Source: Chlorobiaceae bacterium
GTDB lineage: Bacteria; Bacteroidota; Chlorobiia; Chlorobiales; Chlorobiaceae
Assembly (NCBI GenBank): GCA_013334925.1
Contig: JAAXWP010000023.1
Coordinates: forward strand, 1-40,671
Length of the DNA: 40,671 nucleotides
Direction: 5' to 3'
The notes below the pieces were generated by a model, which was not told where the DNA came from, searched no databases, and was given only the letters and a program-made list of their open reading frames with translations. Positions 1,594-26,748 of this stretch are shown here, in pieces. The first letter of the stretch is position 1. Every line of letters begins with the position of its first letter. The translations under genes and the position numbers were made by a program.

Positions 1594-1716
1594 ATCAATC
1601 TCCGTCCATGACTATCTTAAGTGCTTGGATATTCAGCACAAATTGATGTTTACAGTGGCCGAATCGGTACGATTTGAGAAGCTTTGGTGTCAATCCCCAA
1701 TCTTATAGGAGTTAAA

Positions 1717-2589
1717 GTGTCCCGAATGCTGACCTTTCGTGATTATAAAGAGGACGCGCAATCTTGGATTACCTTAGCAACAGGTGAATATTATCCGGAT
1801 ATTCTGCCTGATGCCTGTAGATTGTATGAGCCCGTTTTAGTGGAGTTCGGGCTCTTATTAAAGCAGGCGCATTCATCCACCAATTTGTTTGCCAGCATTA
1901 TGGAAACAAAAAACCAATGGATGCGTACTCAATTATGCCGTGTGTTTAAAAAATATGTCAGCCCCGAAACACCGGTTGAGATGTTGAAGCGAAAGACAGA
2001 TGCTGCCAAAATCTGTGAGCGTTTTGGTCATGGCTTTCGCAATGTAGTGGAAGTTCAGAAGAAATTTCAGTCTCGTCCCATGCCAGATGAGGTCTTGTGT
2101 GCCCTGCTTTGGGAGTACAAAGATCGCGGGAAAAAAGGCTATGATCTAACGGAGCGTCTTTTTGAGATTTTTCGCAGTCATCTTCCAGGTCTGAATGTCA
2201 TTGGCCCTGAGCGCGCGGGAAAGGATGTGCTGATGGGATCTGTTTTTAAAGATTACCCTAAGCCTGACCGTCCAGTTGATTTTATTATTTCAGAAGGAGC
2301 TCGTGTTCTGGCGATAGGTCTTGCTCGATACGATTCTGATCGAGGTGGTGCGCAAGAAGATGATCGCACTGGTCAGTATCGTGAGGTGGCACAGGAAATT
2401 ATTGGTTATTCTGATGCCCACGACATGCCAAATGTTAAAGTTATCTATGTGAATGATGGGCCTGGCCTGTTGTTGGGCTCTATGTGGAACGATTATTCGT
2501 ACATCGAGGAACAATGGGCAGGTCGGGTTATCGTTGCGACATTGCGGATGGTGCCAGATCGAATAACAGAAAAATGGTTGAGGTCTTGA
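1717..2589 (+). CDS. Putative type II restriction endonuclease
   Basis: First gene of a three-gene operon; the methyltransferase starts one base after its stop codon. An AGGAG at 1707-1711 points to the GTG at 1717 (290 residues); TTG at 1684 or ATG at 1726 are alternatives. I cannot name the family. The C-terminal half has PVDFII (Asp near 188) followed by a beta strand and LARYDSDRGG (about 202-211), compatible with a PD-(D/E)xK-like site with an altered second half; this is inference. The endonuclease call rests mostly on the partner methyltransferase and the acidic/basic cluster. It would cut DNA lacking the partner's methyl mark. A+T-rich compared with the phage core, suggesting separate acquisition. 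Confidence 0.65.
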   Translation: MSRMLTFRDYKEDAQSWITLATGEYYPDILPDACRLYEPVLVEFGLLLKQAHSSTNLFASIMETKNQWMRTQLCRVFKKYVSPETPVEMLKRKTDAAKICERFGHGFRNVVEVQKKFQSRPMPDEVLCALLWEYKDRGKKGYDLTERLFEIFRSHLPGLNVIGPERAGKDVLMGSVFKDYPKPDRPVDFIISEGARVLAIGLARYDSDRGGAQEDDRTGQYREVAQEIIGYSDAHDMPNVKVIYVNDGPGLLLGSMWNDYSYIEEQWAGRVIVATLRMVPDRITEKWLRS

Positions 2590-2590
2590 T

Positions 2591-3877
2591 ATGGCTGTTG
2601 GAATTCAGAAAAAAGTTAGAGCGAAAGCTAAACCAGTAAGTTGCGGTTCGGAGCCGTCTTTGTTACGTATTGAATATCCTGGCAAGAAGTCAAGTGAAGA
2701 GATCCTTTCTTATCCTCCTGGTTGTTATAGTCAGGACTCCCGTTATAATGGAGGTAAAAACCGGCTTTATCATGCGGATAATGTAGGCGTTCTAGCTCAC
2801 CTTGCCAGAGATAAGGATGTGGTCGGAAAGGTACGTCTGGTCTACATTGATCCGCCGTTCGCAACTGCGTCAGAATTTCACTCACGAAAACAGGCTCACG
2901 CTTATGATGACCATTTAATAGGGGCAGATTTCGTTGAGTATTTAAGGGAAAGATTGATTTGGATTCATCGTCTCTTAGCCGATGATGGATCTTTATACTT
3001 GCATCTTGATGAGCGCATGGCTTTTCATTTTCGCGTCGTTCTTGATGAGATTTTTGGTGAGGGCTGTTATCGAAATTTTATTACTCGAAAAAAATGCAAT
3101 CCCAAGAATTATACGCGCAAGAAATATGGCAATGTCGCCGATTACATTCTGTTTTACACGAAAACGGATTCCTATGTTTGGAATCGTCCCATTGAAGAAT
3201 GGGATATGGCAAAGGCATTGAAAGAGTATCCATATGTTGATGAAGCTACAGGCCGGCGATATAAAAAAGTTCCCGTCCATGCTCCCGGTGAAAGGAACGG
3301 AGAAACCGGTAAGGAATGGCGCGGGAAGTTGCCGCCGCCTGGCAAGCATTGGCAGTATGTGCCTTCAACTCTGGATGAATTAGATGCGAAAGGAGATATT
3401 TTTTGGTCTTCAAATGGGAATCCAAGGCGCAAGGTATATCTTGAAAATAGCGAAGGTGTGCCGGTTCAGGATATTTGGTTAGATTATAGGGATGCACACA
3501 ATCAAAACATACATATAACAGGATATCCTACTGAGAAAAATCCTGATTTGTTAGCTCGGATTATAAAAGCGTCGTCCAATCCAGGCGATTTAGTGCTAGA
3601 TTGTTTTTCTGGATCAGGGACAACGCTTGCGGTTGCATCGCGGCTTGGCCGCAGCTGGATTGGAGTTGATAGAAGTTCTGAGGCGATCAATACGACGTTG
3701 CACCGATTTGCGTATGGCACAGCGCCTATGGGCGATTTTGTGGGCAATAAAAGGAAACTGGAAAATACCCTTTTCTTCGACAAGGTGACTGATTTTGATC
3801 TTTATACTGAAGATAAACTGATGGCTGAACCAATCGGGTATAGTCGGGGGGCGCATTCTTCTGCGGTAATTGCATAA
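2591..3877 (+). CDS. DNA (N6-adenine/N4-cytosine) methyltransferase, beta order
   Basis: A 428-residue DNA methyltransferase. Motif IV DPPF is at 87-90 (VYIDPPFAT). Motif I, the S-adenosylmethionine pocket, lies near the C-terminus at 339-345 (CFSGSGTT) with IGVDRS following. This IV-before-I order is the beta class. The middle part (about 160-310) holds a target-recognition region. DPPF is typical of amino methyltransferases and more often gives N6-methyladenine. It starts one base after the upstream endonuclease gene and its TAA is followed at once by the glycosylase ATG, so the three are surely co-transcribed. It would protect host and prophage DNA from the partner nuclease. Confidence 0.92.
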   Translation: MAVGIQKKVRAKAKPVSCGSEPSLLRIEYPGKKSSEEILSYPPGCYSQDSRYNGGKNRLYHADNVGVLAHLARDKDVVGKVRLVYIDPPFATASEFHSRKQAHAYDDHLIGADFVEYLRERLIWIHRLLADDGSLYLHLDERMAFHFRVVLDEIFGEGCYRNFITRKKCNPKNYTRKKYGNVADYILFYTKTDSYVWNRPIEEWDMAKALKEYPYVDEATGRRYKKVPVHAPGERNGETGKEWRGKLPPPGKHWQYVPSTLDELDAKGDIFWSSNGNPRRKVYLENSEGVPVQDIWLDYRDAHNQNIHITGYPTEKNPDLLARIIKASSNPGDLVLDCFSGSGTTLAVASRLGRSWIGVDRSSEAINTTLHRFAYGTAPMGDFVGNKRKLENTLFFDKVTDFDLYTEDKLMAEPIGYSRGAHSSAVIA

Positions 3878-4516
3878 ATGGGCGATTTTCTTTATGGGCT
3901 TTCTCCGGAATGTATAGCTGTCGCTATAACGCATCTTGCTGATTCAGATCCAGTTATGGCGCAGCTTGTTTCTGAATGCGGCCACTGCACACTTTCGGAA
4001 TCGGAATATCGCCCGTTTCATACCTTGACTCGTGCAATTCTTGGTCAGCAGCTTTCATCTCAAGCTGCCGAAAGCATTGTGCGACGATTGTCTAAGGTTG
4101 TATCGGTTCCGTTCACGCCTGAAAATTTTCTGGCAGTACCAGTTGATTTGCTGAAGGCTTCTGGCTTGTCTGCGCCCAAGATTCGCTATATTCTCGAACT
4201 TGCTGGACGCATAACAACTGGACGCTTGACGATGGATGCTTTGGTACACCTCTCCGATGAAGAGGTGCTCAAGACATTGATGGAGGTGCCCGGGATCGGA
4301 CCCTGGACGGCTGAAATGTTTCTCATTTTTGGCTTAAAGCGTCCTGATGTCCTTTCTTTGGGTGATGCCGGATTGCAGCGATCTGCGAAGATGCTTTATA
4401 GAGAATCTTATGAAGGCGAAAAAGGTCCGAATTTGTTGGCTCGTGTTTCGACGGGATGGCGTCCATACCGATCTGTGGCATCTTGGTATCTTTGGAAATA
4501 TTTGGATAGTAGATGA
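3878..4516 (+). CDS. AlkA-like DNA-3-methyladenine glycosylase (HhH-GPD)
   Basis: A 212-residue HhH-GPD base-excision glycosylase. It has LGQQLSSQAA (55-64), a helix-hairpin-helix LMEVPGIGPWTAEM (134-147) and the catalytic aspartate in LGDAGLQR (Asp163), matching the Asp of AlkA. The enzyme removes alkylated purines such as 3-methyladenine. It begins right after the methyltransferase stop with no gap, so it is part of the restriction-modification operon. This is an unusual partner: it may repair off-target base methylation by the methyltransferase, or act on modified invading DNA. Both roles are inferences. It lacks the N-terminal beta domain of E. coli AlkA, like many short archaeal and bacterial relatives. 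Confidence 0.88.
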   Translation: MGDFLYGLSPECIAVAITHLADSDPVMAQLVSECGHCTLSESEYRPFHTLTRAILGQQLSSQAAESIVRRLSKVVSVPFTPENFLAVPVDLLKASGLSAPKIRYILELAGRITTGRLTMDALVHLSDEEVLKTLMEVPGIGPWTAEMFLIFGLKRPDVLSLGDAGLQRSAKMLYRESYEGEKGPNLLARVSTGWRPYRSVASWYLWKYLDSR

Positions 4517-5074
4517 CACTTCTTCAGCAGTAAACCACGTTGTCCCTAATCATTGACTCATTATATTTGCCGTAGGTATCCGCAAGTAGAGACCACAATC
4601 CCTGTTAATGTTCTTATGGACACATCACTTCCGTTCATTCTCAACGTGCTTTTCAGCAGGCATTTCATGTCTGCAGTCTGGCGAGCCTTATTTGAAACGC
4701 TATTGAGCTTGTATTGTCGTCAAGCCTATGGCGTTTGAAGAAGCTCCCCCCATCTGTCCAGCCATTGATGAATGCCATGAACACATTGTCAGCGGGGACG
4801 GAACCCCAGTACTATTTAGGGGGGCGATAAGGAAGAGCGACCTTGAGATTAGCCACAAAAGTCCTACGAAGCCATTAGCCCCTAAAATCTCAGACTGACT
4901 ACATGTCTTTTGGTGGATGAGTAAAAGTGTACTTACTCGGCGCCTCTTTTCTGCATTATCCCTTTGCTCTATCTCTCATATTCTGCGTACATTTGATGTA
5001 ATGATGTTTGAGGCCGTACCGTAGTGTTCAATTCTCCATCTTACTCACCTATGCCCATGGCAACGCATGACCAT
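4517..5074. other. Gene-poor stretch after the restriction operon
   Basis: No gene I can support. A 56-codon frame at 4728-4898 (start MAFEEAPPICPAIDEC) has ordinary composition but no ribosome site and no recognisable domain; it may be a gene remnant. The end of the stretch (4957-5040) resembles the gap at 7977-8090 around TTCTSCGTACATT, which may reflect shared upstream sequence of independently acquired cargo genes. Confidence 0.4.
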
Positions 5075-5920
5075 ATGCCAAAGTACCATGAGCTTATGAA
5101 CCCGCTTCTCCAGGCTCTTCGGGATCTTGGTGGGTCGGGATCAATCGATGAAATCTATAGTCGAGTATCGGAGATTCTCGAATTACCAGATGAGATACTT
5201 GCAACGCTTCATGATTCTGAACGGAGCAGCCAAACAGAGGTCGAATATCGCCTTGCCTGGGCGCGTACCTACCTCAAGAAGTATGGCCTACTCGATAATT
5301 CAGAACGCGGAGTCTGGGTGATCGTTCCTGATAAGAAGGATGTGAGCAAGGTTGATCCTCAGGTCGTGGTTCGAAAAGTCAGAGAAAAGGATAACAAAGA
5401 CCGTGCAGCTAAGCCAATTCAGCCGAAGGAAGATGAAGAGTTGCAGGACGGGACAGAAACTTGGCGTTCGCTGTTGTTTCAGGTACTGACTCAAAAGATG
5501 GCTCCTGAAGCCTTCGAACGTCTTGTGAAGCGGATGCTTAGGGAATCTGGTTTTGTTCAGGTCGAGGTGACTGGTCGATCTGGTGATGGGGGAATAGATG
5601 GAAAGGGTATTGTGCGTATTGGAGGGCTTCTGAGTTTTCATGTCCTTTTCCAGTGCAAAAAGTACCAAGGATCCGTTTCGGCTGGTACAATTCGAGACTT
5701 CAGAGGAGCCCTTGTTGGCAGGGCAGATAAGGGGCTGTTTGTGACAACCGGGACCTTTACCAGGGATGCAATTAAAGAGGCAACGAGGGATGGCGCCCCA
5801 CCGATCGATTTGTTGGATGGTGATCAGCTGGCGGACAAGCTGAAAGAGTTGAGACTTGGGGTGAAAACTGAATTGGTCGAGAGTGTTTCTGTCGACGTAG
5901 AATGGTTTCAGAATATTTAG
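5075..5920 (+). CDS. mrr: Mrr-like restriction endonuclease
   Basis: A nuclease of the Mrr family, known to cut methylated or otherwise modified DNA. The N-terminal winged-helix Mrr_N domain (MPKYHELMNPLL onward) is followed by a charged linker. The catalytic PD-(D/E)xK domain contains FERLVKRML, the GDGGIDG loop (catalytic Asp) and QCKKY as the Q-x-K half-site, then the conserved DFRGAL and FVTTGTFT. I place the start at 5075 because Mrr proteins begin M-x-x-PxYxxxxxPLL. The frame is open upstream to a GTG at 5024 with ATGs at 5051 and 5057, and no Shine-Dalgarno decides. It stands alone between the restriction operon and the HNH gene. Confidence 0.88.
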   Translation: MPKYHELMNPLLQALRDLGGSGSIDEIYSRVSEILELPDEILATLHDSERSSQTEVEYRLAWARTYLKKYGLLDNSERGVWVIVPDKKDVSKVDPQVVVRKVREKDNKDRAAKPIQPKEDEELQDGTETWRSLLFQVLTQKMAPEAFERLVKRMLRESGFVQVEVTGRSGDGGIDGKGIVRIGGLLSFHVLFQCKKYQGSVSAGTIRDFRGALVGRADKGLFVTTGTFTRDAIKEATRDGAPPIDLLDGDQLADKLKELRLGVKTELVESVSVDVEWFQNI

Positions 5921-5964
5921 GGGATAAAATAAGTTAGTTATCGACAAAAAAATAATATTTGACG

Positions 5965-7212
5965 ATGATACCGCATGGTTTAACAAATGAAGATATTCTT
6001 TTTGCTGTTGCACAAATTGATAGGGAAGGGTTTCCTGCGGTTAATAAGTCAAGACGCTATTATTTGCTGGTCAATGATAAGGAATATCCGCCCAAGCATG
6101 TGATTCGGCTTGCTGCAATACATGCTGGTCTTCAATTGACAGATTATAACGCTGTTGAGGCGAAAAGTTACTTTCAAAGCAGAGGATATGAAATAATAGA
6201 AAGAACGGGTTATACATATCAGAGTTCTGAACAGGTGCATGATGAAGAAGAGGATGATAAAAAGCTTAAGATCAAATATTGGTGGGTCAACCATAAGCAG
6301 ACATTCAGTGCTGAAATCGAGGGGGGCTATATCTGGTCTCCTAAGTCTAACGTTAATGGCGGTTTTAATCAGACCTATCTGAATCTTACGCAAGTCAAGC
6401 CTGGCGATGTCGTCTTTTCTTATGCATCAGGGATGATCAAGGCAATCGGAGTGGCGACGAACAGTTATCGAGAACAGTTACTACCGGCCGCATTTGGGGG
6501 TGCCACTGAGCGATGGGGAGAGATAGGCTGGGAGGTCCTTATTCAATGGAAGCTATTGCAAGTACCTATTAGCCCTAAGGATCATCTTCAAAAGTTTGCC
6601 TCATTACTTCCAGAAAAGCATTCGCCAATAAGAGCAGATGGAAACGGCAACCAGGGCTGCTATCTTGCTTCGATATCTGATGAGCTTGGTCTGCTTTTAA
6701 TGGATATGTTAAGAGTCGGCGATACCGGGGCGGTGTATGCAGCAATTGCGATTTCAGAAGAGCGGCAGGATCAAGAAGCAGAAAGTATTATCAACCAGTC
6801 CGATATCGCGCATACCGAAAAGGAGCAGTTGATCAAGGCTCGTATCGGTCAGGGAATGTTCCGCATTAATCTTGAGAAGATTGAAAAGGGTTGCCGGGTG
6901 ACAGGGGTAACGCGCAAGGATCTACTGATAGCAAGCCATATAAAGCCTTGGAGGGATTCAGATAATGCAGAACGGATAGATGGATTCAATGGGCTACTGT
7001 TAGCGCCCCATGTTGATAAGCTTTTTGATCGTGGCTGGATTTCTTTCAGTGACGATGGAGAGATACTTGCTGTTGATGCAGAAATTAGAGAGATCTTGAA
7101 AAGTTGGGGGATTAATCCTGCTAAAAATATTGGTCGATTTTCTGCTCGTCAATATTCATACCTTGCATACCATCGCAAGAATGTTTTTATGAGGCCAGAT
7201 ACTTCTATATGA
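5965..7212 (+). CDS. Modification-dependent HNH endonuclease (ScoMcrA-like head, EVE-like reader)
   Basis: A 415-residue, three-part protein. Residues about 1-80 resemble the N-terminal head of ScoMcrA-like type IV enzymes (ILFAVAQIDREGFP, YPPKHVIRLA). Residues about 100-250 look like an EVE/PUA-type modified-base reader (KYWWVNHKQTF, YIWSPK, VKPGDVVFSYASGMIKAIG). The C-terminus is an HNH_2 nuclease with SHIKPW (His325), GFNGLLL (Asn342) and APHVDKLFD (His349). The layout suggests a nuclease that reads modified bases and cleaves nearby. A TTG six bases upstream could also start it. It is A+T-rich, 44 bp after the Mrr gene, same strand. The reader assignment is inference from sequence pattern. 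Confidence 0.8.
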   Translation: MIPHGLTNEDILFAVAQIDREGFPAVNKSRRYYLLVNDKEYPPKHVIRLAAIHAGLQLTDYNAVEAKSYFQSRGYEIIERTGYTYQSSEQVHDEEEDDKKLKIKYWWVNHKQTFSAEIEGGYIWSPKSNVNGGFNQTYLNLTQVKPGDVVFSYASGMIKAIGVATNSYREQLLPAAFGGATERWGEIGWEVLIQWKLLQVPISPKDHLQKFASLLPEKHSPIRADGNGNQGCYLASISDELGLLLMDMLRVGDTGAVYAAIAISEERQDQEAESIINQSDIAHTEKEQLIKARIGQGMFRINLEKIEKGCRVTGVTRKDLLIASHIKPWRDSDNAERIDGFNGLLLAPHVDKLFDRGWISFSDDGEILAVDAEIREILKSWGINPAKNIGRFSARQYSYLAYHRKNVFMRPDTSI

Positions 7213-7322
7213 TATGATCTTTGATAGGTTATTCATAATAAAATATACAGAGTTCATCTATGGACTTCGGCTTCGCGCTAATGGACCTTACGAAGAATGG
7301 ATAGTAAGTCTAAAATGTATTT

Positions 7323-7949
7323 ATGGTGTTAGTGAACAATACTGATTACTTGAGGTACAGTGACAAAGAAGCGTACTTGTTTCAAGATGTATCGGGACGC
7401 TTTCGATCTAAAGGGTATATTGATGCCTTTGACTTCTTTTCAATTATTGTATGGAAGTCAAATCGATCAAAATCAAAAATAGCAAAACGACTTAGGCAAT
7501 TAGCACCTGAGGATTTACCACATGATGTTGCTTTTGAGAAAATATGCCGTGATATGACAACAAAGATATCTATAGCTGAATCTCATGATAAGCGGATGGA
7601 GATTCTTTTAAAAGAGCCATACTTGTTTTATTTACCAATAGCTTCGGCGATTTTAGCGGTATTATATCCTGAATATTTCACTATTTATGACTATCGGGTT
7701 TGCGCTGAACTGAAGGGTTTGGATGGGCAAAATGATTTTAGGAAACTCGCGAAAAATCGGAACCTCAAAACGGTCTTGAATGGGTATCATAAGTTTCGAG
7801 AGGCTGTGATTGCATTATCTCCGCATCTGAAACTTCGCGATAAAGACTTGGATCTTTTTGCCCGTTCTCAAGTCAAGGATCTTCAGAAAGACATCCGAGA
7901 GTGTTTTCCTCCAAAGGGCATAGACGGTGAAAAAAACACAGATTACTGA
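7323..7949 (+). CDS. Unknown defence-island protein, all-alpha
   Basis: A 208-residue soluble protein I cannot name. It looks mostly helical and basic. The best-marked stretch is LPIASAILAVLYPEYFTIYDYRVCAELKG (about 101-129), where a hydrophobic helix is followed by Y-P-x-x-F-T-x-Y-D-x-R. That spacing recalls the helix-Asp arrangement of HhH-GPD glycosylases, and I have a loose memory of similar proteins beside restriction genes, but no hairpin motif is visible. It is very A+T-rich, has no Shine-Dalgarno at its ATG, and sits between the HNH nuclease and the pentapeptide protein. A role in defence is inferred from position only. Confidence 0.72.
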   Translation: MVLVNNTDYLRYSDKEAYLFQDVSGRFRSKGYIDAFDFFSIIVWKSNRSKSKIAKRLRQLAPEDLPHDVAFEKICRDMTTKISIAESHDKRMEILLKEPYLFYLPIASAILAVLYPEYFTIYDYRVCAELKGLDGQNDFRKLAKNRNLKTVLNGYHKFREAVIALSPHLKLRDKDLDLFARSQVKDLQKDIRECFPPKGIDGEKNTDY

Positions 7950-8146
7950 TCCATATCAGGGGATCCTCTGTGTCTGCCATTGCTCCATCTCCTTAATTCT
8001 CCGTACATTGATAAAGCAGTTCCTGAGTAGTATCCAATAGCAATGCTGAACCACAATCTTACTGATATGCACCTTGCCTCACCTGGTAATCTCGCCCTCA
8101 TCCGGTCGTTCTTGGCCGCATTATCAACATCACCCCACTAACCAAC

Positions 8147-9724
8147 ATGGCGAATCCAGGACATCTGGCGATCCTCAATAATGGGAGGGATGTTTGGAAT
8201 AAGTGGCGGGAAGAGAACGCTGCTGTTGAACCGGATTTAATCAAAGCCAATTTTGAGGGGGCCAAACTTTATGGATTTAATTTGAAGTGCGCCAATCTGA
8301 ATGGATCCAATTTGAAGGGCGCCAAGCTGTATGGATCCAATCTTGAGGGATCCAATCTGAGGGGAACCCATCTGGAGGGCGCCAAGCTGTATGGATCTAA
8401 TTTGAAGGGATCAAATCTGGAGGGCGCCAAGCTGTATGGATCCAATCTTGAGGGATCCAACCTGATGAAATCCAACCTGATGGGGGCCAAGCTGTGTGAA
8501 GCCAATCTGAAGGAGGCTCATCTGCATGGATCAAATCTGGATGGAGCCAATTTGGAGAGTGCTAATCTGGAAGGAGCCAATCTTGAGGGAGCCAATCTGT
8601 ATAGAGCTATTCTTTTGGGATCTAACATGAATGGGGCCTATCTAAATGGATCCAATCTGGAGGGAGCCAATTTGAATGGAGCTCATCTAAATGGATCCAA
8701 TCTGAAGGAAGCCAATCTGAAGGAAGCCAATCTGAAGGAAGCCAATCTGAAGGAAGCTCATCTGCATGGAGCCAATCTGGAGGGATCCAATCTGGAAGGA
8801 GCCAATCTGGAGAGAGCTTATCTTGATAGATCCAATCTGAAAAAAGCCGATCTGAAGCATACAGATATTTCAATAGCATCCTTAATTGACGCTAATCTTG
8901 ATGGTGCAAATCTCACCGGAGCAAAGCTATGGGAAGCAACTCGTTCTGGATGGTCAATCAAGGACGTTATATGTGAGTACGTCTATTTCGATCGTGAGGG
9001 TAAGCATAAGACAGAATTCGCTCCTGGCGAATTTGAACGCTTGTATTCTGAGAAGGCGAGGATTGTTTTGCAGTATAAGGACGGATTAACAAGATTTGAG
9101 TTAGCTACGCTTCCTATGCTGATTCAATTTGTAGAACGTAATCATCCTGGGTGTCGCCTGCGATGGAAATCATTCCAGGAGGATGCTGGAGGAGAAAGTG
9201 CAACAATAGTAATTGAGGATTTAGGTAATTGTGAGGAGGAAAAGTTGAGGGCCGAGGTTGAGGGCTTGAAAAACCAAATTCGTGAAAAAGAGGAGAGGTT
9301 ATTAGCGGCGCGATCTGAGTACGAAGGGCTTCAAAAATTTATGTTTAATGCAATGAAGGAGTTCTCTATGCTCAATGTTAATATCGAGGGTGATAACTAT
9401 GGCCCGATTGGGAAGAAATCGAAAGTAGAACGTCAGATAATTAACAACCACGATCCGGCGGCCATATCCAACCTGATTAACGAAATCCTAGCTATTCGGA
9501 CGGATATTGTTCAGGTGCTTTCTCCTGAACAATCAGTTGATTTTGATGCTGCCATTAAGGATCTTCAGGCTCAGGTGGTTTCTCCTCAGAAGGATCAGGA
9601 CAGCTTTAAAAAAGGTTTAACAAAACTTGGAGGCTTTGTGTTAAAGGCTATGGAGCATGGTGCTAATCTTAGTACGATCGCCACTGCATTTCAGGCCTTT
9701 GGCATTCATCTACCATTTGGCTGA
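8147..9724 (+). CDS. Pentapeptide-repeat protein with coiled-coil C-terminus
   Basis: A 525-residue protein. After a 35-residue N-terminal cap (LNNGRDVWNKWREEN), residues 36-260 form about 45 unbroken A/S-N-L-x-x pentapeptides, predicted to fold as a long square beta-helix. A globular segment follows, then a coiled coil near 365-400 (LRAEVEGLKNQIREKEERLL), a GDNYGPIG motif and a helical tail with an amphipathic LGGFVLKAME segment. Pentapeptide rods can mimic DNA or act as scaffolds; the tail could couple binding to an effector step. Function unknown. It is the last gene of the cargo block. Confidence 0.9.
   Translation: MANPGHLAILNNGRDVWNKWREENAAVEPDLIKANFEGAKLYGFNLKCANLNGSNLKGAKLYGSNLEGSNLRGTHLEGAKLYGSNLKGSNLEGAKLYGSNLEGSNLMKSNLMGAKLCEANLKEAHLHGSNLDGANLESANLEGANLEGANLYRAILLGSNMNGAYLNGSNLEGANLNGAHLNGSNLKEANLKEANLKEANLKEAHLHGANLEGSNLEGANLERAYLDRSNLKKADLKHTDISIASLIDANLDGANLTGAKLWEATRSGWSIKDVICEYVYFDREGKHKTEFAPGEFERLYSEKARIVLQYKDGLTRFELATLPMLIQFVERNHPGCRLRWKSFQEDAGGESATIVIEDLGNCEEEKLRAEVEGLKNQIREKEERLLAARSEYEGLQKFMFNAMKEFSMLNVNIEGDNYGPIGKKSKVERQIINNHDPAAISNLINEILAIRTDIVQVLSPEQSVDFDAAIKDLQAQVVSPQKDQDSFKKGLTKLGGFVLKAMEHGANLSTIATAFQAFGIHLPFG
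8252..8926 (+). repeat. Tandem 15-bp repeat array inside the pentapeptide gene
   Basis: About 45 tandem 15-bp units encode the pentapeptides. Some are identical at DNA level: the unit CTGAAGGAAGCCAAT occurs three times in a row at 8702-8746, with a fourth, slightly changed, at 8747-8761. A higher-order block built on GGCGCCAAGCTGTATGGATC recurs near 8319, 8379 and 8424. This suggests recent expansion by slippage or unequal recombination. Confidence 0.9.
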
Positions 9725-10156
9725 ATTTTCGGATTTCCCCCGTCCGCCTATCGTCCAATTCTTAAGTCTCCGAATATTTGCCGTAGTAGTATACCGAGTA
9801 GTGTAGTAAGCTGAACCCTCATCTCGTTGGATATGTCGACCTCTCTCGTCTTGTTCCTGCTTCTCGCTGGCGCGTATTCTGTAGTACATCGAAACGAACG
9901 GTCCATGGTGTCTCAGGACCATACAGTATTGCGCCATGCATGATTGCCAACATTTTGCCCAAAGAGAAAGGGTCGAATACCACCATCAACCCGGATTGAT
10001 CAAAATTGTGGTCGAGAGGGATACTGCATATGGGCTTAAGTATCGCTTTGAAAAGGAGTTCTATGTGTTGGAGGTCATGATTCATGACGTATATTCATAA
10101 GTGTGTGATTTTGAGGGTGAGTGTAAAAAATAAATGTTTGCGGATAAAACCTGTTT
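9725..10156. other. Mostly non-coding gap after the pentapeptide gene
   Basis: It contains one short frame (9936-10100, listed separately). The rest shows TCTCCGAATATTTGCCGTAG near 9766, weakly like the gaps at 4980 and 7998, and becomes very A+T-rich after 10100. I see no clear terminator or promoter. Confidence 0.35.
9936..10100 (+). CDS. Small hypothetical protein or gene remnant
   Basis: A 54-residue frame beginning MHDCQHFAQRERVEYHH and ending FYVLEVMIHDVYS. The composition (PGLIKIVVERDTAYGLKYRF) looks like a folded beta/alpha segment more than random translation. There is no ribosome site, and the frame is open only 17 codons upstream. It may be the C-terminal stub of a decayed gene. 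I do not recognise it. Confidence 0.3.
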   Translation: MHDCQHFAQRERVEYHHQPGLIKIVVERDTAYGLKYRFEKEFYVLEVMIHDVYS

Positions 10157-10375
10157 ATGATAAATGATGTTACTATGAAACTTTCTCAAATTGGTTTTAG
10201 GAAATTTAAGAGGCTGCACAACTCTATGATTTTTGTTTTAAAAAAAACTTCTAAAAATAATGGAATACGATCTTTGTGGTTAAAAAAAGGAAGTAGACTT
10301 GAAGAGCTTGATTCTCGTATTCCAAGAAATTTATTGGGGGTGGTAAATGAAAGTATTAAAAAAAAAGAATCTTAA
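10157..10375 (+). CDS. Small basic hypothetical protein
   Basis: A 72-residue, lysine-rich frame (MINDVTMKLSQIGF; ending NESIKKKES) in the most A+T-rich part of the element. A second ATG at 10175 is possible. No domain, no Shine-Dalgarno. It is convergent with the Abi gene. It could be an orphan gene or a chance frame in A+T-rich DNA. Confidence 0.35.
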   Translation: MINDVTMKLSQIGFRKFKRLHNSMIFVLKKTSKNNGIRSLWLKKGSRLEELDSRIPRNLLGVVNESIKKKES

Positions 10376-10480
10376 TTATATGTGGTGTGTTTTAATTGAG
10401 ATGCTTTCGATTACATGTATTGATAATATAAAAGAATGTAAGTTGATTCTGTGGGGCCTGTTTATTGTTAATCAGAATAG

Positions 10481-11119
10481 CTACTCTCTATCGACTGCGC
10501 GAGCGAAATTATAACCAAGTTGCGTTGGGAAAATGCAGTCAAGTTCATGTTTCCCGCTGTACATTACAGCGGAAGATATTAGGCCAAGGCGAGATAGGTT
10601 TCCTAAAGATGTTAATACATTCGTTGATGGTATAAGGTCTTCAGTGTCTGGTTTTTCCCTATAAAGATGTTCTGGTAAATGTTTAGTCCATACGCCATTT
10701 GTTGTGTCGTATTTTAAGGAAAATGAATATATTTTTTTTATGATCTGAGCATCGAGTGGTGATAGGTCTTCTAAGATGCTTATAAATGCTCGCCTCATTT
10801 CAATACTGGACGATGCGTCAACCGCATTGGCCAAAAGGTTTGCCCATTGATCTTGCATCCAATCATCCTCTTCAAGTGATCCTGCCTGAATTAAAGGAAA
10901 TGCTATATTTAGAGGGATTTTTTTTGATTGATATCCTTTTTTAATAAGCAACTTATTTGTTTTATCAAAAAGATTGATGAGTTGTTTGCGCCGTATATAC
11001 TTAAGATATTCTTCTGCTATGCCAGCTATTTGTGATGCGGGACCGTCAATATATGGGGTTAATAAATCAACAATTTTGCCTGTTGTTATGGCAATTTCTC
11101 TTATTGTATCATTGTCCAT
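10481..11119 (-). CDS. Abi-alpha (DUF4393) family protein, putative abortive infection
   Basis: A 212-residue protein resembling the DUF4393/Abi-alpha family. The family core is visible: an N-terminal helical part, then PLIQAGSLEEDDWMQDQWANLLANAVD and ISILEDLSPLDAQIIKKIY, and a C-terminal winged-helix-like end (LGNLSRLGLISSA, PTQLGYNFARA). Family members are linked to phage exclusion. It lies 33 bp downstream of the repressor on the same strand and so should be expressed with it in the lysogen, a classic place for superinfection-exclusion genes. It is A+T-rich compared with the repressor, which hints at acquisition after the regulatory module. Confidence 0.8.
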   Translation of the reverse strand: MDNDTIREIAITTGKIVDLLTPYIDGPASQIAGIAEEYLKYIRRKQLINLFDKTNKLLIKKGYQSKKIPLNIAFPLIQAGSLEEDDWMQDQWANLLANAVDASSSIEMRRAFISILEDLSPLDAQIIKKIYSFSLKYDTTNGVWTKHLPEHLYREKPDTEDLIPSTNVLTSLGNLSRLGLISSAVMYSGKHELDCIFPTQLGYNFARAVDRE

Positions 11120-11152: not shown

Positions 11153-11899
11153 TTACACGGTTTTTCTTATCACGTAAGTAACTACACCAAGTGTCCTGAA
11201 GTCCATCTCAGCAGTGATCGCGATCGGCTTGTAGCTCGAGTTCTCTGGCAACAGCGAGACGGCACCCTTCTTGATCTTCAATCGCTTCACAGTCTGCTCG
11301 TCGTTGATACTGGCAATCACGATGTGGTTATTCATCGGTTCGATCGCTCGATCGACGATGAGCAGATCTCCTTCCAGGATCCCTGCATCCTTCATACTGT
11401 CTCCAAATGCCTTCACCGCATAGGTGTCTTTCGGGTGCTTAACCCGATTGGCTGAGATGGTGATGTACTCCTCGATCGTTCCCGAGCAAGTTACCGGCTT
11501 TCCTGCTGCAATGGCATGGGCAAAGACCGGGATTGTGATGGCGAGCTCTTGATGACCTTCCTTGACCTGGCCTGATGCACTTCCAGCGTCCTTTTCACCT
11601 CTATCGATCTTGATCAGACCACGGTCGAACATTGCCTGAATCTTACGGGCTTCGGCCATAAACGAATCTTCAGCATCAGATTCTTCGGGTAAGGATGCTG
11701 GAATGTTGTACTCCTCTTGAATGAACTTTAAGGTCTCTGGTCCAAATTTTCTTAACAAACGATCGAAGTCAATTCCTTGTTTGCCGCTTTTCCAGTATCC
11801 AACAGTCTGTTTGCTTACTCCAAAAATATCCCCAAAAGCCTCATCACTCTTGGTTCCTGCCTTGGCTTTGAGCATGTCTATGAACTCGCGTTTATCCAT
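11153..11899 (-). CDS. CI-like repressor with S24 (LexA-type) autoprotease
   Basis: The lysogeny repressor, 248 residues. An N-terminal helix-turn-helix of the phage CI type (EAFGDIFGVSKQTVGYWKSGK, 20-40) is followed by a linker. The S24 peptidase domain has a predicted Ala132-Gly133 cleavage site (HAIAAGKP), catalytic Ser168 (GDSM) and Lys205 (TVKRL), with LexA-like spacing. RecA-stimulated self-cleavage would therefore induce the prophage after DNA damage. It is divergent from the early operon; the shared 105-bp gap carries TTGGAC repeats. Its leader is A-rich with no Shine-Dalgarno. Confidence 0.94.
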   Translation of the reverse strand: MDKREFIDMLKAKAGTKSDEAFGDIFGVSKQTVGYWKSGKQGIDFDRLLRKFGPETLKFIQEEYNIPASLPEESDAEDSFMAEARKIQAMFDRGLIKIDRGEKDAGSASGQVKEGHQELAITIPVFAHAIAAGKPVTCSGTIEEYITISANRVKHPKDTYAVKAFGDSMKDAGILEGDLLIVDRAIEPMNNHIVIASINDEQTVKRLKIKKGAVSLLPENSSYKPIAITAEMDFRTLGVVTYVIRKTV

Positions 11900-15709: not shown

Positions 15710-15952
15710 ATGGCCGACGAAGTAACGGGCACGAAGCCTGACCTGGTGCACCTGGACAAACTGAGCCCCGAGGAACTGAAGCGGGAGATCTACCGGCTTC
15801 GCAAGGAGCGAACGAACCTGCGCAAACAGGTCGAGACGAAGGAATCGATCATCGACTACCTGCGAACGGCACAAGAGGACCGGATGGCGATGAAGGTGGC
15901 CGAAGCGGTCGAACGAGTGCTTCCGAACCGAGGCATCAGGAGATTGGGATGA
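15710..15952 (+). CDS. Small coiled-coil protein
   Basis: 80 residues, with a heptad-like helix at about 20-55 (EELKREIYRLRKERTNLRKQVETKE). No catalytic motif. The leader is A/C/G-rich and lacks a Shine-Dalgarno. Its end overlaps the HNH start by 4 bp. Unknown; may act with the downstream HNH or terminase. Confidence 0.65.
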   Translation: MADEVTGTKPDLVHLDKLSPEELKREIYRLRKERTNLRKQVETKESIIDYLRTAQEDRMAMKVAEAVERVLPNRGIRRLG

Positions 15953-16350
15953 TCCGCAAACCTTGCCGACACCCAGGCTGCCACAGCCTGACCGACCGAA
16001 CCGATGGGTATTGCCTGGAGCATGCCCGGCAACATCGGAACGAGTACGCGAGGGAGTACCGGAAGGAGACCGGCCCGAGGGTGTACGACACCCAGCGGTG
16101 GCGGAAACTGTCGAAACAGATCCTGGCGCTGCATCCCTTCTGCCCGAGATGCGAAGCGATGGGCAAGGTATCGCTTTCGACCCTGGTGCACCACAAGGAC
16201 CGGGACCGGAACAACTGGTCGAGTGAGAACCTGGAGGCGCTCTGCAAGCCCTGTCACGAGTTCGAACATCGTCACGAGGTGTTCCGTCGTCAGCCGAAGC
16301 AGGGGGCCGGGGGGGCCTGTGAAATTTCGAGTGAGCTCAAGCGGCAATAG
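15949..16350 (+). CDS. HNH endonuclease adjacent to terminase
   Basis: A 133-residue HNH nuclease. Cysteine pairs CPRC (65-68) and CKPC (99-102) frame a zinc ribbon. The HNH core is VHHKDRDRNN (His81, His82), SENLEALC (Asn94) and CHEFEH (His103). HK97-type phages often carry such a nuclease next to TerS, where it is needed for terminase cutting at cos. AGGAG lies before the ATG. The C-terminus is low-complexity because it runs into the G-rich cos candidate. Confidence 0.92.
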   Translation: MIRKPCRHPGCHSLTDRTDGYCLEHARQHRNEYAREYRKETGPRVYDTQRWRKLSKQILALHPFCPRCEAMGKVSLSTLVHHKDRDRNNWSSENLEALCKPCHEFEHRHEVFRRQPKQGAGGACEISSELKRQ

Positions 16351-16398: not shown

Positions 16399-16920
16399 AT
16401 GAGGGGGAGAAAGCCGCAACCGACCAATCTGCACATCATCAAAGGCACCTATCGAGCGGACCGGCATAGTCAAACAGCAGAAGCACTTAGCAGCTCTGAC
16501 GATAGCCTGTTGACGCCGCCGTCCTGGCTGAAAGCAGATGCCAAAAAAGAGTGGAAATTGGAGGCAAAAATGGCCATAAAAGCGGGGATTTTGACCCATT
16601 CTGACCGCTCCGCCTTTGCGGATCTGTGCATTTTGCAGGCGCGAGTAAAACAGGCCTACAAGGACATGCACACCTTCGCCGAATCGATCAAAAAGAAGGC
16701 GGCGGCACGTGGCGGTACCTGGGAATACGACACGATCCTTCCCCCGAACCAGAGCGGGTACTTCGCCCAGAACCCCTTCATCCCGATCTACAACAAGGCG
16801 CTGAAAGACCTGAACCAGCTCCGGGCGGAGTTCGGCATGACTCCAAGCAGCCGAACCCGGATCAAGATCGACAAACCGGCTGAGGACAACCCCTTCGCGG
16901 CACTCTCGGCCATGCAGTAA
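16399..16920 (+). CDS. terS: Terminase small subunit, P27 family
   Basis: 173 residues starting MRGRKPQPTNLHIIKGTYR, the typical P27 opening, then PPSWLKADAKKEWKLEA and LCILQARVKQAY, and the C-terminal segment LRAEFGMTPSSRTRIK common to the family. It recognises phage DNA and presents it to TerL. The ATG follows a G-run that may act as ribosome site. The gene is separated from TerL by the ParB-like and glycosyltransferase genes, which is not the usual order. Confidence 0.93.
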   Translation: MRGRKPQPTNLHIIKGTYRADRHSQTAEALSSSDDSLLTPPSWLKADAKKEWKLEAKMAIKAGILTHSDRSAFADLCILQARVKQAYKDMHTFAESIKKKAAARGGTWEYDTILPPNQSGYFAQNPFIPIYNKALKDLNQLRAEFGMTPSSRTRIKIDKPAEDNPFAALSAMQ

Positions 16921-16938: not shown

Positions 16939-17589
16939 ATGAAACTGTCTGACATCAACCCCAACCCGGACAATCCACGGGTGATCAAGGACGCAAAATT
17001 CCGCAAGCTGGTGAACTCAATCCGTGAGTTCCCGAAGATGCTGGAACTGCGACCGATGGTCCTGGACACCACGAACACGCTCATCGGCGGAAACATGCGA
17101 TTCAGGGCTCTCCAGCACCTGGGTTATACCGAAATACCGGACACCTGGGTCAAACGTGCAGAGGACCTTTCAGAGGACGAGAAGAAGCGGTTTATCGTGG
17201 CCGACAACATCCAGCTCGGAGACTGGGACTGGGACGTGCTGTCGAACCTGTGGAACGAGGACGATCTGATCGACTGGGGGCTCACCATCGAAGCCGCTCA
17301 AAAAGAAGCGGATCCGGAAGTTGCCGAGGAACAGCGGACGGTGGAGGACATGGAACTGAAGTTCAACGAACATCACGACTACATCGTGTTCCTGTTCAAC
17401 AACGTCAACGACTACGTGATGGCGGTCACGAACCTGGGCCTCAAAAAGGTGAAAGCTACACTCTCCGAGAAAGCCAAAAAGGTGGGGCTCGGCCGGGTGG
17501 TCGATGGCACCCGCCTGATCGAACTTATGCAACAGATCCAGAACCAGAAGTACCATGCAGCCGAAGAAAGTCATCCTGTCGAGGGGTAG
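16939..17589 (+). CDS. ParB/sulfiredoxin-fold protein
   Basis: 216 residues. The N-terminal ParB-like domain begins LSDINPNPDNPR and has LRPMVLDTTNTLIGGNMRFRAL (38-58), the nucleotide-binding GG-N-x-R box. Then comes FIVADNIQLGDWDWDVL, seen in phage ParB-like proteins. The C-terminal part (EHHDYIVFLFNN to the end) is a separate helical/beta domain. Phage ParB-like proteins bind or hydrolyse nucleotides and are often linked to DNA modification. It overlaps the glycosyltransferase gene by 35 bp and lies between TerS and TerL. The leader CAACAAACCAACC lacks a Shine-Dalgarno. Confidence 0.85.
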   Translation: MKLSDINPNPDNPRVIKDAKFRKLVNSIREFPKMLELRPMVLDTTNTLIGGNMRFRALQHLGYTEIPDTWVKRAEDLSEDEKKRFIVADNIQLGDWDWDVLSNLWNEDDLIDWGLTIEAAQKEADPEVAEEQRTVEDMELKFNEHHDYIVFLFNNVNDYVMAVTNLGLKKVKATLSEKAKKVGLGRVVDGTRLIELMQQIQNQKYHAAEESHPVEG

Positions 17590-18289
17590 ATCCCAGCACA
17601 TCACCACACACCATATCCTTCAGGACTTTGAACTGGTGGTGCCCGAGTCCGAGATTCCGGACTACCAGACGATCGTGAAGAACGCGAACGAGATCATCGG
17701 GATCCCCGATGCGGTGGTCGGGCTGGGGTCGGTGCGGAACTGGATTCTGGATCATTATGCGGACGAGGTGGTCGTTATGTTTGACGACGACATCAAGTAC
17801 TGCGTCTCGGTCCTGAACTTCTCACCGGTCAGGATGGAACACCCGGATGAGATCGAGGGGATCATCTACAACTGCGCCCTGAACGCCTATGAGGCCGGGG
17901 CCAGGTGCTTCAGCTTCTCTCAGACCTGCGACGTCCGGAAGTACTCCCACTCCCAGCCGTTCCTGCTCAACTCCTGGGTGGGGTCGGTCGTCGGGGTGAT
18001 TGGCCGTGAACTCCGGTTCACCGAGAAGAACAAGCTCAAGGTGGATATCGATTTCACCCTGCAGAACCTGAAGAAGCACCGGATCGTCTGGGTGGATGCC
18101 CGGTTCGGGTTCGTGCCAACCAGGGACACCAACGTCGGGGGCAACTCAGCATTCCGATCCCAGGAGCAGCTCGAAGTTGAGATCCAGTTCCTGAAAGACA
18201 AGTGGGGCAAACACATCAAGGTCTCGAACAACAAGTCGAAGTACCGGACGACCATCAACGTCAAACGCACCCAGCAGTTGACGGTATGA
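17555..18289 (+). CDS. TET-associated-type glycosyltransferase (GT-A fold)
   Basis: 244 residues. It shows ILSRGR (7-12), VVPESEIPDY (28-37), GLGSVRNWIL (57-65), the metal-binding FDDDI (76-80), SWVGSVVGVIG (140-150) and DIDFTLQ (164-170). This pattern matches the TET-associated glycosyltransferase family described for phage DNA hypermodification. The enzyme would move a sugar from a nucleotide donor to a modified base. No TET/JBP oxygenase or thymidylate-synthase homologue is in the window, so its acceptor is unclear. It overlaps the ParB-like gene and TerL, so the three are co-translated. Function inferred from family. Confidence 0.75.
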   Translation: MQPKKVILSRGRSQHITTHHILQDFELVVPESEIPDYQTIVKNANEIIGIPDAVVGLGSVRNWILDHYADEVVVMFDDDIKYCVSVLNFSPVRMEHPDEIEGIIYNCALNAYEAGARCFSFSQTCDVRKYSHSQPFLLNSWVGSVVGVIGRELRFTEKNKLKVDIDFTLQNLKKHRIVWVDARFGFVPTRDTNVGGNSAFRSQEQLEVEIQFLKDKWGKHIKVSNNKSKYRTTINVKRTQQLTV

Positions 18290-19980
18290 TGCATTCCCAC
18301 ATCGCGGCGATCTACGGCTACATCGACGACGTGCTGGACGGGCGGATTCCGGCCTGTGAGCACATCAAGAACGCCGCCCGAAGGCACCTGAAGGACCTTG
18401 AGGCCTCCGAGGATCCCGAGTACCCCTACGAGTTCAGGGAAGAGCTGGTGATCAAGTTCATTGCCTTCTGCGAACTCCACCACCACGTGAAAGGCAAGTG
18501 GCGCGGCCAGCGGATCAAGCTCGAACCCTGGCAGAAGTTCTCGTTCGGGATCCCGTTCGGCTGGGTGCGGAAATCGGACGGCCTGCGCCGGTACCGGGAG
18601 ATCTTCGCCCTGATTGCGAGGAAGAACGCCAAATCGACGATGGCGGCCCTGGTCGGCCTCTACATGGGGGCTGAAGACAGCTCCGGCGCTCCTGAGGTTT
18701 ACTCGGGGGCGACCTCCGAGAAACAGGCGCGAGAAGTGTTCGATCCGGCCTGGAGGATGGCGAACACAAACCGGGCCTTCAAGGCGCATTACCGGGTCAA
18801 CCTGACCGGGACCGAGACGAACCCTACGGGGATCTTCTTCACCGGCAACGGCGGGAAGTTCGTGCCGGTCATCGGCAACCCTGGTGACGGCGCAAGCCCC
18901 TCCTGTTCGATCACCGACGAGTACCATGAGCACCCGACCTCTTCGCAGTACGACACCATGGTGACCGGAATGGGAGCCAGGGAACAGCCTCTTCGGCTGG
19001 TGATCAGCACCGCTGGCACGAACATCTCATATCCCTGCTTCGAGAAGCAACAGGACTGTATCAAGATCCTGCAGGGGGTAATGAAGAACGATGAAGTATG
19101 GGCCGTCATCTACACGATCGATCCGGATGACGACTGGCGCGATTTCGGTTGCTGGGCGAAAGCGAACCCGAACATGGGGGTATCGGTGTTCGAAGATTTC
19201 CTTCTTGCCCGGTACGAAGAGGCGATGACCAAGGCGGAACGCCAGAACATCATCCGATGCAAGCATCTGAACGAATGGCAGAACAGCGGTCAGGCCTTCA
19301 TCAACATCGTGGAGTGGGCGAAAGGAGCGGATCCGACACTCAGGCTCGAGGACTTCGAGGGTGAGGAGTGCGCCCTGGGACTGGATCTTGCCTCCAAGAT
19401 CGACATTGCAGCCTATGCCAAGCTCTTCAGACGCGAGAACACCTATTACGCCTTCCTGAGATACTACCTGCCGGAGATGACGGTCCAGAAGGCCGAAAAC
19501 ATGCATTACCAGCAATGGGAGAAGGAGGGGCGATTGGTCGTAACACCTGGTGCGCGTACCGACTTCGAGTACATCGAAGAGGACATCAAGGAGGACGCGA
19601 AGCGATTCAGTGTCCGAGGTCTCGGGTACGACCCTTACGAGTCGGGTTACCTGATCAACAACCTGGCGAAGTGGGAGGGCAACCGGATCGAGTGTATCGA
19701 AGTGCCCCAGACGGCCACGCACATCAGCGAACCGATGAAGGATTTCGAGGCCCTCGTTTATGACGGCAAGTTCAAGTTCGATGGAGATCCGATTCTCACC
19801 TGGATGATATCGAACGTCATCCAGAAGCAGGCGAGGAACAAAAAGTACTACCCGAGCAGGGAAAACGTCAAGAACAAGATCGACGGGTTCATGGCGACCC
19901 TGATGGCGCTCCTGGTGTGGGGGTCGGAGACTGAAGAGGGGCCTTCGGTGTATGAGGGCAGAGGAATTATGTTATTATAA
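18286..19980 (+). CDS. terL: Terminase large subunit (Terminase_1)
   Basis: The packaging motor and headful/cos nuclease, 564 residues. Walker A-like ARKNAKST is at 111-118, Walker B SCSITDEYHEH with Asp211-Glu212, and coupling motif VISTAGT at 239-245. The nuclease domain begins ALGLDLASKID (Asp367) and continues with GYDPYES and KNKIDGFMATLMAL. The frame is open to 18202, but ATGATG at 18286 overlaps the previous stop and gives the normal TerL N-terminus, so I start there. TerS lies 1.4 kb upstream with two inserted genes between. Confidence 0.95.
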   Translation: MMHSHIAAIYGYIDDVLDGRIPACEHIKNAARRHLKDLEASEDPEYPYEFREELVIKFIAFCELHHHVKGKWRGQRIKLEPWQKFSFGIPFGWVRKSDGLRRYREIFALIARKNAKSTMAALVGLYMGAEDSSGAPEVYSGATSEKQAREVFDPAWRMANTNRAFKAHYRVNLTGTETNPTGIFFTGNGGKFVPVIGNPGDGASPSCSITDEYHEHPTSSQYDTMVTGMGAREQPLRLVISTAGTNISYPCFEKQQDCIKILQGVMKNDEVWAVIYTIDPDDDWRDFGCWAKANPNMGVSVFEDFLLARYEEAMTKAERQNIIRCKHLNEWQNSGQAFINIVEWAKGADPTLRLEDFEGEECALGLDLASKIDIAAYAKLFRRENTYYAFLRYYLPEMTVQKAENMHYQQWEKEGRLVVTPGARTDFEYIEEDIKEDAKRFSVRGLGYDPYESGYLINNLAKWEGNRIECIEVPQTATHISEPMKDFEALVYDGKFKFDGDPILTWMISNVIQKQARNKKYYPSRENVKNKIDGFMATLMALLVWGSETEEGPSVYEGRGIMLL

Positions 19981-20467: not shown

Positions 20468-20962
20468 ATGACCAAAGGAATGTGCGTTTTTCGGCAATAC
20501 AGCCTCAGGCTGGTGAAGGAGAAAGCAGGGGAGTACGACGCCCCGAAGAAGATCACGGGGGCACAAGATATCAACCGGGTGTGCCGGGAAGTTCTCGAAT
20601 TGCACGAGCAGCCCGAGGAGAAACTGGTGTGCTTCGACCTGAACACGAAGAACGTGGTGATTGCGATTCGGGTGGTGTCGGTGGGCACGATCAATGCCTC
20701 CCTGGTGCATCCGAGGGAGGTGTTCAAGGGAGCGCTCTTATCGAACGCCCACAGCATCATCATTGCGCATAACCATCCATCAGGGGAGACGAAGCCGAGC
20801 GTACCTGACGACCAGGTCACCAAGATCCTGCAAGCGGCAGGGGATCTCCTACAGGTCAAGCTGCTCGATCACGTGATCGTCGGTGAAGAGGATTACTACA
20901 GCTACCGGGAGGCCGGCAAGCTCGATGAACCAACAACAACCAAAACCAGCAAAAGGAGATAA
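20468..20962 (+). CDS. radC: RadC-like JAB-domain protein
   Basis: 164 residues of the RadC/MPN+ (JAB) metalloprotease-like fold. Glu51 (EEKLVCFDL) and the zinc motif HNHPSG (101-106) with Asp114 are intact. The N-terminal HhH part of chromosomal RadC is absent, as in phage and plasmid versions. Such genes often travel with anti-restriction and DNA-processing genes; the exact reaction is not established. In one run with the next two genes. Confidence 0.92.
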   Translation: MTKGMCVFRQYSLRLVKEKAGEYDAPKKITGAQDINRVCREVLELHEQPEEKLVCFDLNTKNVVIAIRVVSVGTINASLVHPREVFKGALLSNAHSIIIAHNHPSGETKPSVPDDQVTKILQAAGDLLQVKLLDHVIVGEEDYYSYREAGKLDEPTTTKTSKRR

Positions 20963-20967: not shown

Positions 20968-21513
20968 ATGCAGTATTTGACGAAACGGGGCTATGCGCTC
21001 CTCGATGTGGCCAGCGCCTTACAGAAATCGATCAGGAGAGGGGACGCAAAACTCGCCGGGTACATAGCGCAAGAGCTCGTGGCATCGGGATATGTGGAGT
21101 ACGTCTGGAAGCGCCTTCTGACTATCTCAGCCGAAGACTGCCATGGCATCATCACCCAGGAGATCAAGGCCCTGCATGAGAGCTTTGTCTTGGTCAACAA
21201 GGGGAAAAAGGAGCTGAAAGGGAGGATCTTCGTCTCGAAGGCGGTGCTGATCCTGGCCCATGCCCTGAAGTCGAGGGACGCAGATCACTTGCAGTGCCTG
21301 ATGTACGACCAGAAGCTCGGCATCACGGATGAGGAGATCGAAGCCGAGATCCGTGGACTGGACCGGTTGGAGAAGGTCGAGCTACCAGAGTACACCTATG
21401 ACGTGCACACGAGAAATGGGCGGATAGCCGGGAAAACCAAGGAGATGTTCTTCAGAGAGGAGCAACAGGGATTGTCACCCAAGGCCCCTGGTCTGTTCGA
21501 CAACCTGCTCTAA
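20968..21513 (+). CDS. RarA/MgsA C-terminal-like protein
   Basis: 181 residues. The start (ASALQKSIRRGDAKLAGYIA, ELVASGYVEYVWKRLLTISAED) resembles the C-terminal tetramerisation domain of RarA/MgsA (ALQKSIR-GSD ... YIxRRLxxxASED), but with no ATPase domain. Free-standing versions occur on mobile elements. It may bind the host RarA, SSB or other fork proteins. AAAGGAG lies upstream. The second half (RLEKVELPEYTYDVHTRNGR) is conserved-looking but unknown. Confidence 0.65.
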   Translation: MQYLTKRGYALLDVASALQKSIRRGDAKLAGYIAQELVASGYVEYVWKRLLTISAEDCHGIITQEIKALHESFVLVNKGKKELKGRIFVSKAVLILAHALKSRDADHLQCLMYDQKLGITDEEIEAEIRGLDRLEKVELPEYTYDVHTRNGRIAGKTKEMFFREEQQGLSPKAPGLFDNLL

Positions 21514-26656: not shown

Positions 26657-26729
26657 ACCGGGATGGAGCAGTTGGCAGCTCGTCTGGCTCATAACCAGAA
26701 GGTCGAGGGTTCGAGTCCTTCTCCCGGCA
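26657..26729 (+). tRNA. tRNA-Met (CAT)
   Basis: A full cloverleaf: acceptor ACCGGGA/TCCCGGC, D-arm GAGC/GCTC (26666-26681), anticodon arm TCTGG-CTCATAA-CCAGA (26683-26699), variable AGGTC, T-arm GAGGG-TTCGAGT-CCTTC (26705-26721), discriminator A26729; CCA not encoded. Position 1-72 is an A-C mismatch, unusual for an elongator; the anticodon stem lacks the initiator's three G-C pairs. A CAT anticodon could also be a lysidine-modified tRNA-Ile. Its 5' end overlaps the palindrome CCCGGTATACCGGG (26649-26662). It lies inside the late operon. Confidence 0.85.
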
Positions 26730-26748
26730 CAAAGTAGAAAAGGATAAG

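Follow-up and report, generated by a model that had tools for sequence, protein, structure and literature searches.

The window analysed here, a stretch of 40,671 nucleotides from a Chlorobiaceae bacterium (contig JAAXWP010000023.1), carries a prophage whose genes of interest are collected in Table 1. Because it has an integrase and an S24 repressor, the phage is temperate. The host genome comprises 2.73 Mb. A gene in it for the Fenna-Matthews-Olson bacteriochlorophyll protein (PF02327, E 2e-222) identifies the host as a green sulfur bacterium, and an 84%-identical relative of the prophage glycosyltransferase in a Chlorobiaceae MAG (L004) agrees with this. In the packaging cluster the order of genes is HNH, TerS, ParB-like protein, glycosyltransferase (GT), TerL, a 124-aa protein, RadC and a gene that we call G3. 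The reading frames of the ParB-like protein and the GT overlap by 35 bases. The stop codon of the GT overlaps the start of TerL in the sequence ATGA at the junction; as 18286 is the most likely start of TerL, a GTG start at 18202, with an 88-base overlap, was set aside. The order of TerS, ParB-fold protein, TAGT-family GT and TerL in overlapping frames, as given by the original prediction, is borne out by Pfam, PHROG and the junction sequence. Two genes are additions to it: G3, a third partner beyond TerL, and an N6/N4-type DNA methylase in the prophage cargo.

Table 1. Features of the prophage discussed in the text (positions in the window)
Feature	Positions	Strand	Remarks
Integrase	325-1593		
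Type II methylase	2591-3877		N6/N4-type
HhH-GPD glycosylase	3878-4516		
Mrr-type modification-dependent nuclease	5024-5920		
HNH (cargo region)	5959-7212		
Pentapeptide-repeat protein	8147-9724		
Abi_alpha	10481-11119	minus	
S24 repressor	11153-11899	minus	
HNH (packaging cluster)	15949-16350		
TerS	16399-16920	+	P27/Terminase_4 type, opens packaging cluster; PF05119 E 4e-17, phrog_83 E 1.9e-35
ParB/Srx-fold protein	16939-17589	+	216 aa; PHROG ParB families, best E 6.5e-22
TAGT-family GT-A glycosyltransferase	17555-18289	+	244 aa; PF20691 E 3.3e-9
TerL	18286-19980	+	PF20441 E 1.2e-35, PF03354 E 5e-21, phrog_9 E 1e-152
RadC-like JAB-domain protein	20468-20962		Adjoins G3
G3	20968-21513	+	181 aa; RarA/MgsA C-terminal-domain homologue without other domains
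tRNA-Met (CAT)	26657-26730		Within structural-gene region

The low-GC cargo between integrase and repressor (1684-11119) resembles defence genes. It includes a modification-dependent nuclease, whose presence near a proposed DNA-modification module raises the question of self-protection. The RadC-like JAB-domain family is likewise found near the module in four other loci (L004, L066, L074 and L093).

The three proteins

The GT matches the TAGT family (PF20691) with 37.4 bits, the family cut-off being 27.5, and its PHROG match is "beta-glucosyl-HMC-alpha-glucosyltransferase" (phrog_842). Its AlphaFold2 model (pLDDT 91.4) has a GT-A fold. Comparison with the PDB returned GT-A matches (E 3e-7), and the model superposes at TM 0.85 on that of the beta-glucosyl-HMC-alpha-glucosyltransferase of Klebsiella phage PKO111. 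Among 45 relatives of 20-84% identity, D77-D79 of the acidic FDDDI motif are invariant and stand at a strand end in the model; D164, G195-G196 and R201 are invariant as well. Judged by sequence and model, the enzyme is a TAGT of GT-A fold with a predicted acidic donor/metal motif. The donor site, on which the original prediction depended, can be recognised both by motif and by fold. With T2/T6-type TAGTs the enzyme shares the PF20691/phrog_842 family, the GT-A fold and the DDD motif; it differs from them in its partners (ParB and G3), in its location in a packaging locus and in that no hydroxymethylase was found in the records searched.

The ParB-like protein scores 26.2 bits against ParB_N of Pfam, marginally below the cut-off of 26.3. 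Its best PHROG matches are stand-alone phage ParBs and the N-terminal parts of ParB-methylase fusions from phages (E 4e-24). The profile of its family matches Spo0J/ParB/Noc structures (E 3e-14), with weak matches to sulfiredoxin and SerK. Three residues, N12 (NPDNPR), G51 and R54 (GGNMR), do not vary among 42 relatives, and N90 (ADN) hardly does; these residues fall at what we take to be the nucleotide-binding positions of CTPase ParBs. By analogy with ParB-methylase fusions and with the ParB-like ATPase DpdB (PMC12839542), we propose the protein as a candidate NTP-binding, DNA-loading partner of a modification enzyme. ParB domains adjoining phage DNA-modification genes have been noted without an assigned function (PMC12783734). 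A ParB/Srx fold adjoins or is fused to a base-modifying enzyme in ParB-methylase fusions, in the CmoX carboxymethyltransferase (PMC12783734) and in DpdA-DpdB, whereas here the proposed chemistry is glycosylation and a protein resembling the RarA C-terminal domain is added.

The profile of the G3 family matches the RarA/MgsA structures 3bge, 3ctd, 2r9g, 3pvs and 8g28 (E 1e-9 to 2e-7), and the top 21 Foldseek matches of G3 are all RarA-type C-terminal structures; its model is weaker than that of the GT (pLDDT 84.5). Profile and Foldseek agree in placing G3 with the C-terminal collar domain of RarA/MgsA. It aligns with this domain of the RarA/MgsA/WRNIP1 AAA+ proteins including the S-x-x-x-K-S-x-R and E-D motifs, and its family has an invariant C-terminal motif, P-x4-D-x-H-T. 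Unlike these proteins, G3 lacks the AAA+ motor (no ATPase domain was found in its 181 aa, which match the C-terminal region of RarA only), and it occurs together with a TAGT and not as a replication protein. The profile also matches cellular RarA frames of about 420-480 aa throughout the phylum, mostly with E 1e-6 to 1e-12; phage-type G3 (E below 1e-50) is found in just 3 of its 394 genomes.

Recurrence of the module

Viral contigs were scanned with the GT and, independently, with G3. The 95 GT loci fall into 48 clusters at 85% identity, and a ParB gene lies upstream of the TAGT in 46 of these 48 non-redundant loci, in 41 of them overlapping it or at most one base apart. Because ParB and GT recur together so regularly, their pairing is not due to chance. 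The neighbour survey called for by the original prediction therefore reveals a general association and not a one-off. All three genes are present in 36 of the 48, across many terminase types. The order is mostly ParB-GT-G3; three loci have G3-ParB-GT and two have G3 on the opposite strand. TerL genes that adjoin the module include the Pfam types Terminase_3, GpA, Terminase_6 and TerL_ATPase/nuclease. Given these several unrelated families of TerL, a terminase linkage peculiar to this prophage was rejected.

When G3 alone was used, 70 loci were retrieved, and all carry a TAGT apart from four contigs that end near G3, and L089. The latter was rejected as a case of G3 without TAGT, as two TAGTs are located further off on its contig (12836-14297). 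They form a tandem pair, as do those at L086:212-1686, as if two sugars were added.

In a tree of 70 TAGT sequences (quick IQ-TREE, SH-aLRT only), all G3-linked TAGTs belong to one clade (38 rows, SH-aLRT 97); a single row of this clade lacks G3, and it comes from a truncated contig. TET-linked TAGTs fall outside this clade, and there are further groups with neither partner. Pairwise distances between the proteins co-vary (GT-G3 r 0.69, GT-ParB 0.76, ParB-G3 0.57; shuffled maximum 0.27), as expected if they form one unit, though common phage ancestry contributes too.

The module is also widespread in Microbacterium phages, Quhwah of cluster EC among them, where 56 records contain the GT and 56 contain G3. 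Their maps read ParB-x-GT-UDP-glucose dehydrogenase-G3. These genomes are circularly permuted (PMC7302621); once this is accounted for, some 1.2 kb separate the end of the module from TerS, which lies downstream. For this region the same paper reports two glycosyltransferases together with a UDP-glucose dehydrogenase and leaves them uninterpreted (PMC7302621). In Microbacterium cluster EC phages a second annotated glycosyltransferase of 441 aa, with no Pfam match, lies directly upstream of the module (L193:7896-9218). Altogether, sugar-nucleotide enzymes are found inside the module as UDP-glucose dehydrogenase in six clusters and as NAD-dependent epimerase in three.

The interval between ParB and terminase

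A scan of viral contigs with ParB alone gave 80 loci; with four more added, 67 are non-redundant at 90% identity. Wherever at least three downstream genes are present on the contig (64 loci), terminase genes lie at most six genes away: in 55 loci TerL (53 by sequence cluster, the others by Pfam in the window and by annotation in Javan291), in the rest presumed TerS. The TerL clusters were verified by Pfam and the presumed TerS clusters are supported weakly by PHROG.

A recognised or predicted DNA-modification enzyme is present in 58 of the 67 loci. Methylases account for 20, namely 15 ParB-methylase fusions (assigned by length, one confirmed by Pfam), two separate methylases (one by annotation, one by motif) and three C5-methylases. 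TAGTs account for 21, four of them with TET, three with G3 and 14 with neither nearby. The remaining loci carry TET/JBP without TAGT (five, one of them with an amino acid:DNA transferase, PF18724), a DpdA-type transglycosylase with deazaguanine-synthesis genes (four), ABC-GNAT (four), Mom (three) or another GT family (one). Five slots are empty, with ParB alone before TerS, three hold a gene of no recognised class and one is cut by the contig end. Examples in named phages are ParB-TAGT-TerS-TerL in Streptococcus Javan291, ParB-methylase-TerS-TerL in Bacteroides BS-TP3 and ParB-GNAT-TerL in Leptospira LE4. ABC-ATPase-linked GNATs have been given as predicted DNA modifiers (PMC7824862); the Leptospira GNAT, when used as a query in its turn, matched the source phage alone.

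Judged by its gene content, the interval is a predicted DNA-modification slot, irrespective of chemistry. Both the overlapping genes in the prophage and the occurrence of the same kind of ParB next to methylases, Mom, DpdA and TET point to a coupling of the ParB/Srx-fold protein to DNA-modification enzymes. As the slot exchanges enzymes of this kind, DNA is the likely target of the TAGT as well, and we regard this as the strongest argument for it.

The acceptor base and a possible mechanism

To our knowledge, every phage DNA glycosylation pathway characterised so far uses a base that already bears a hydroxyl or hydroxymethyl group. TET/JBP (PF12851), the mark of a TET-TAGT pathway, was not found in 32 records, among them the host genome and that of Microbacterium phage Phrancesco, which is complete; a later search matched 7 of 7 positive controls and none of 35 other records. 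Thymidylate-synthase-type hydroxymethylase (PF00303), on which the T-even glucosyl-hydroxymethylcytosine pathway depends, was likewise not found in the 32 records, host included, while the control matched 9 of 14 genomes. Many records are fragments, and only in two cases, the host and the complete Microbacterium phage, are both absences firm. The original prediction that oxygenase and nucleotide-modifying enzyme are missing holds for these two classes. It is otherwise with its suggestion of a host-made modified base: C5-methylase was not found in the host genome either, and 5mC or hmC made by the host was rejected as acceptor. The N6/N4-type methylase of the prophage would yield no hydroxyl acceptor.

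These negative searches leave two possibilities: the TAGT acts on a normal base, or a suitable base is prepared by G3 or by an unrecognised enzyme. TET/JBP-TAGT pathways (base J-like) have the GT family in common with our module, and four loci (L156, L161, L164 and L180) have ParB-TAGT-TET in the same slot before the terminase. Here, in contrast, TET/JBP was not found in the records searched and the G3-linked TAGTs form a separate clade. TET/JBP was not found in any G3 record searched, nor G3 in any TET, Mom, C5-methylase, DpdA or fusion record examined. A strict rule that each TAGT goes with either TET or G3 was nevertheless rejected, as a clade of ParB-linked TAGTs has neither, and G3 is thus not a general substitute for TET.

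We suggest that the ParB-like protein, the TAGT and G3 probably constitute one phage DNA-modification module. What the sequences themselves show is the families, the coupling of the genes, the association of TAGT with G3 and the swapping of chemistries in the ParB slot; DNA as acceptor, the recruiting role of ParB and the timing are what we infer from them. Late in infection, the three proteins would be produced alongside the terminase. The ParB-like protein, probably switched by a nucleotide, would bind phage DNA and act as the common partner that brings the modification enzyme. The TAGT would then move a sugar from a nucleotide sugar onto a base. G3, built on a collar domain of clamp-loader type as in RarA, might present or prepare the DNA and so occupy the position held by TET/JBP in related modules. 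Such a mark would protect new, soon-to-be-packaged genomes from restriction, with the prophage staying unmarked. Of the original prediction, the coupling of a DNA-directed GT with a ParB-like protein at the terminase locus has good support as a general locus association; the host-made acceptor is not supported. Its further idea that DNA is modified in step with packaging comes from gene order only; expression from a late operon would suffice without any physical coupling. As to the chemistry, we tentatively advance the possibility that TAGT, ParB and the RarA-C-like protein glycosylate a normal unhydroxylated base, or one prepared by G3, with no need for a hydroxymethylase or TET/JBP, the set being one cartridge of the general ParB slot by the packaging genes.

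The enzyme could instead be a conventional TAGT that transfers a sugar onto a hydroxymethylated or already glycosylated base, made by an unrecognised enzyme elsewhere in phage or host. Characterised TAGTs do use sugar-bearing hydroxymethylcytosine (T6; PMC13216743, PMC13390438), TET-TAGT pairs do exist in the ParB slot, and numerous phage genes are unannotated. We still consider such a pathway unlikely, given the negative searches in the 32 records, host included, and the gene conserved with this TAGT clade is G3, not an oxidase. Modification of a protein of the virion, the terminase or host defence, by a GT that is near the terminase merely as a late gene, seems to us very improbable. GT-A enzymes frequently act on proteins or glycans and the locus adjoins structural genes; however, the slot and the ParB partner are common to DNA methylases, Mom, DpdA and TET, both conserved partners belong to DNA-associated families, and a near viral structural neighbour of the enzyme is a named DNA glucosyltransferase. 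We give hardly any credence to ParB as a partition or maintenance protein with unrelated cargo as neighbours. Its N-terminal fold is that of ParB and some phages do partition as plasmids, but this prophage has an integrase, the ParB family adjoins such an enzyme of DNA modification in 58 of the 67 loci and is often fused to a methylase, and its association with phage DNA-modification genes is on record (PMC12783734). No ParA was noticed next to the gene in the prophage.

TAGTs were reportedly predicted and named in the survey of Iyer et al. 2013. Earlier papers already describe ParB next to genes for phage DNA modification, as well as TAGTs that occur without other GTs; for example, 288 of 753 phage genomes have a TAGT without alpha- or beta-GT, with no function assigned (PMC13216743), and our module is a candidate for such a function. 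A link between TAGT and a RarA-C protein was not found in the literature searched, which covered papers available without subscription, and neither was a general swap-in ParB slot; the novelty of the slot is less certain than that of the TAGT-G3 pairing. The module is real, widespread and testable, and easily grown Microbacterium phages that carry it make it testable now. A conserved and widespread GT module without a preparing enzyme implies either undescribed chemistry or an undescribed preparing enzyme, and G3 offers the best lead as to how TET is dispensed with.

The slot also provides a genomic rule for finding new DNA modifications, which is to inspect the interval between this ParB and the terminase. 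At L158:2155-3659 the order is ParB, sulfotransferase, TAGT and terminase, a hint of sulfated sugar on DNA. At L170:5560-6903 ParB is followed by a PF00534 glycosyltransferase, TerS and TerL. A set resembling hypermodification, with ParB, PLP enzyme, amino acid:DNA transferase, TET/JBP and terminase, is found at L178:6567-9792. Finally, the genes between ParB and terminase at L141:879-1817, L154:6797-7405 and L162:895-1383 are candidates for new DNA-modification enzymes.
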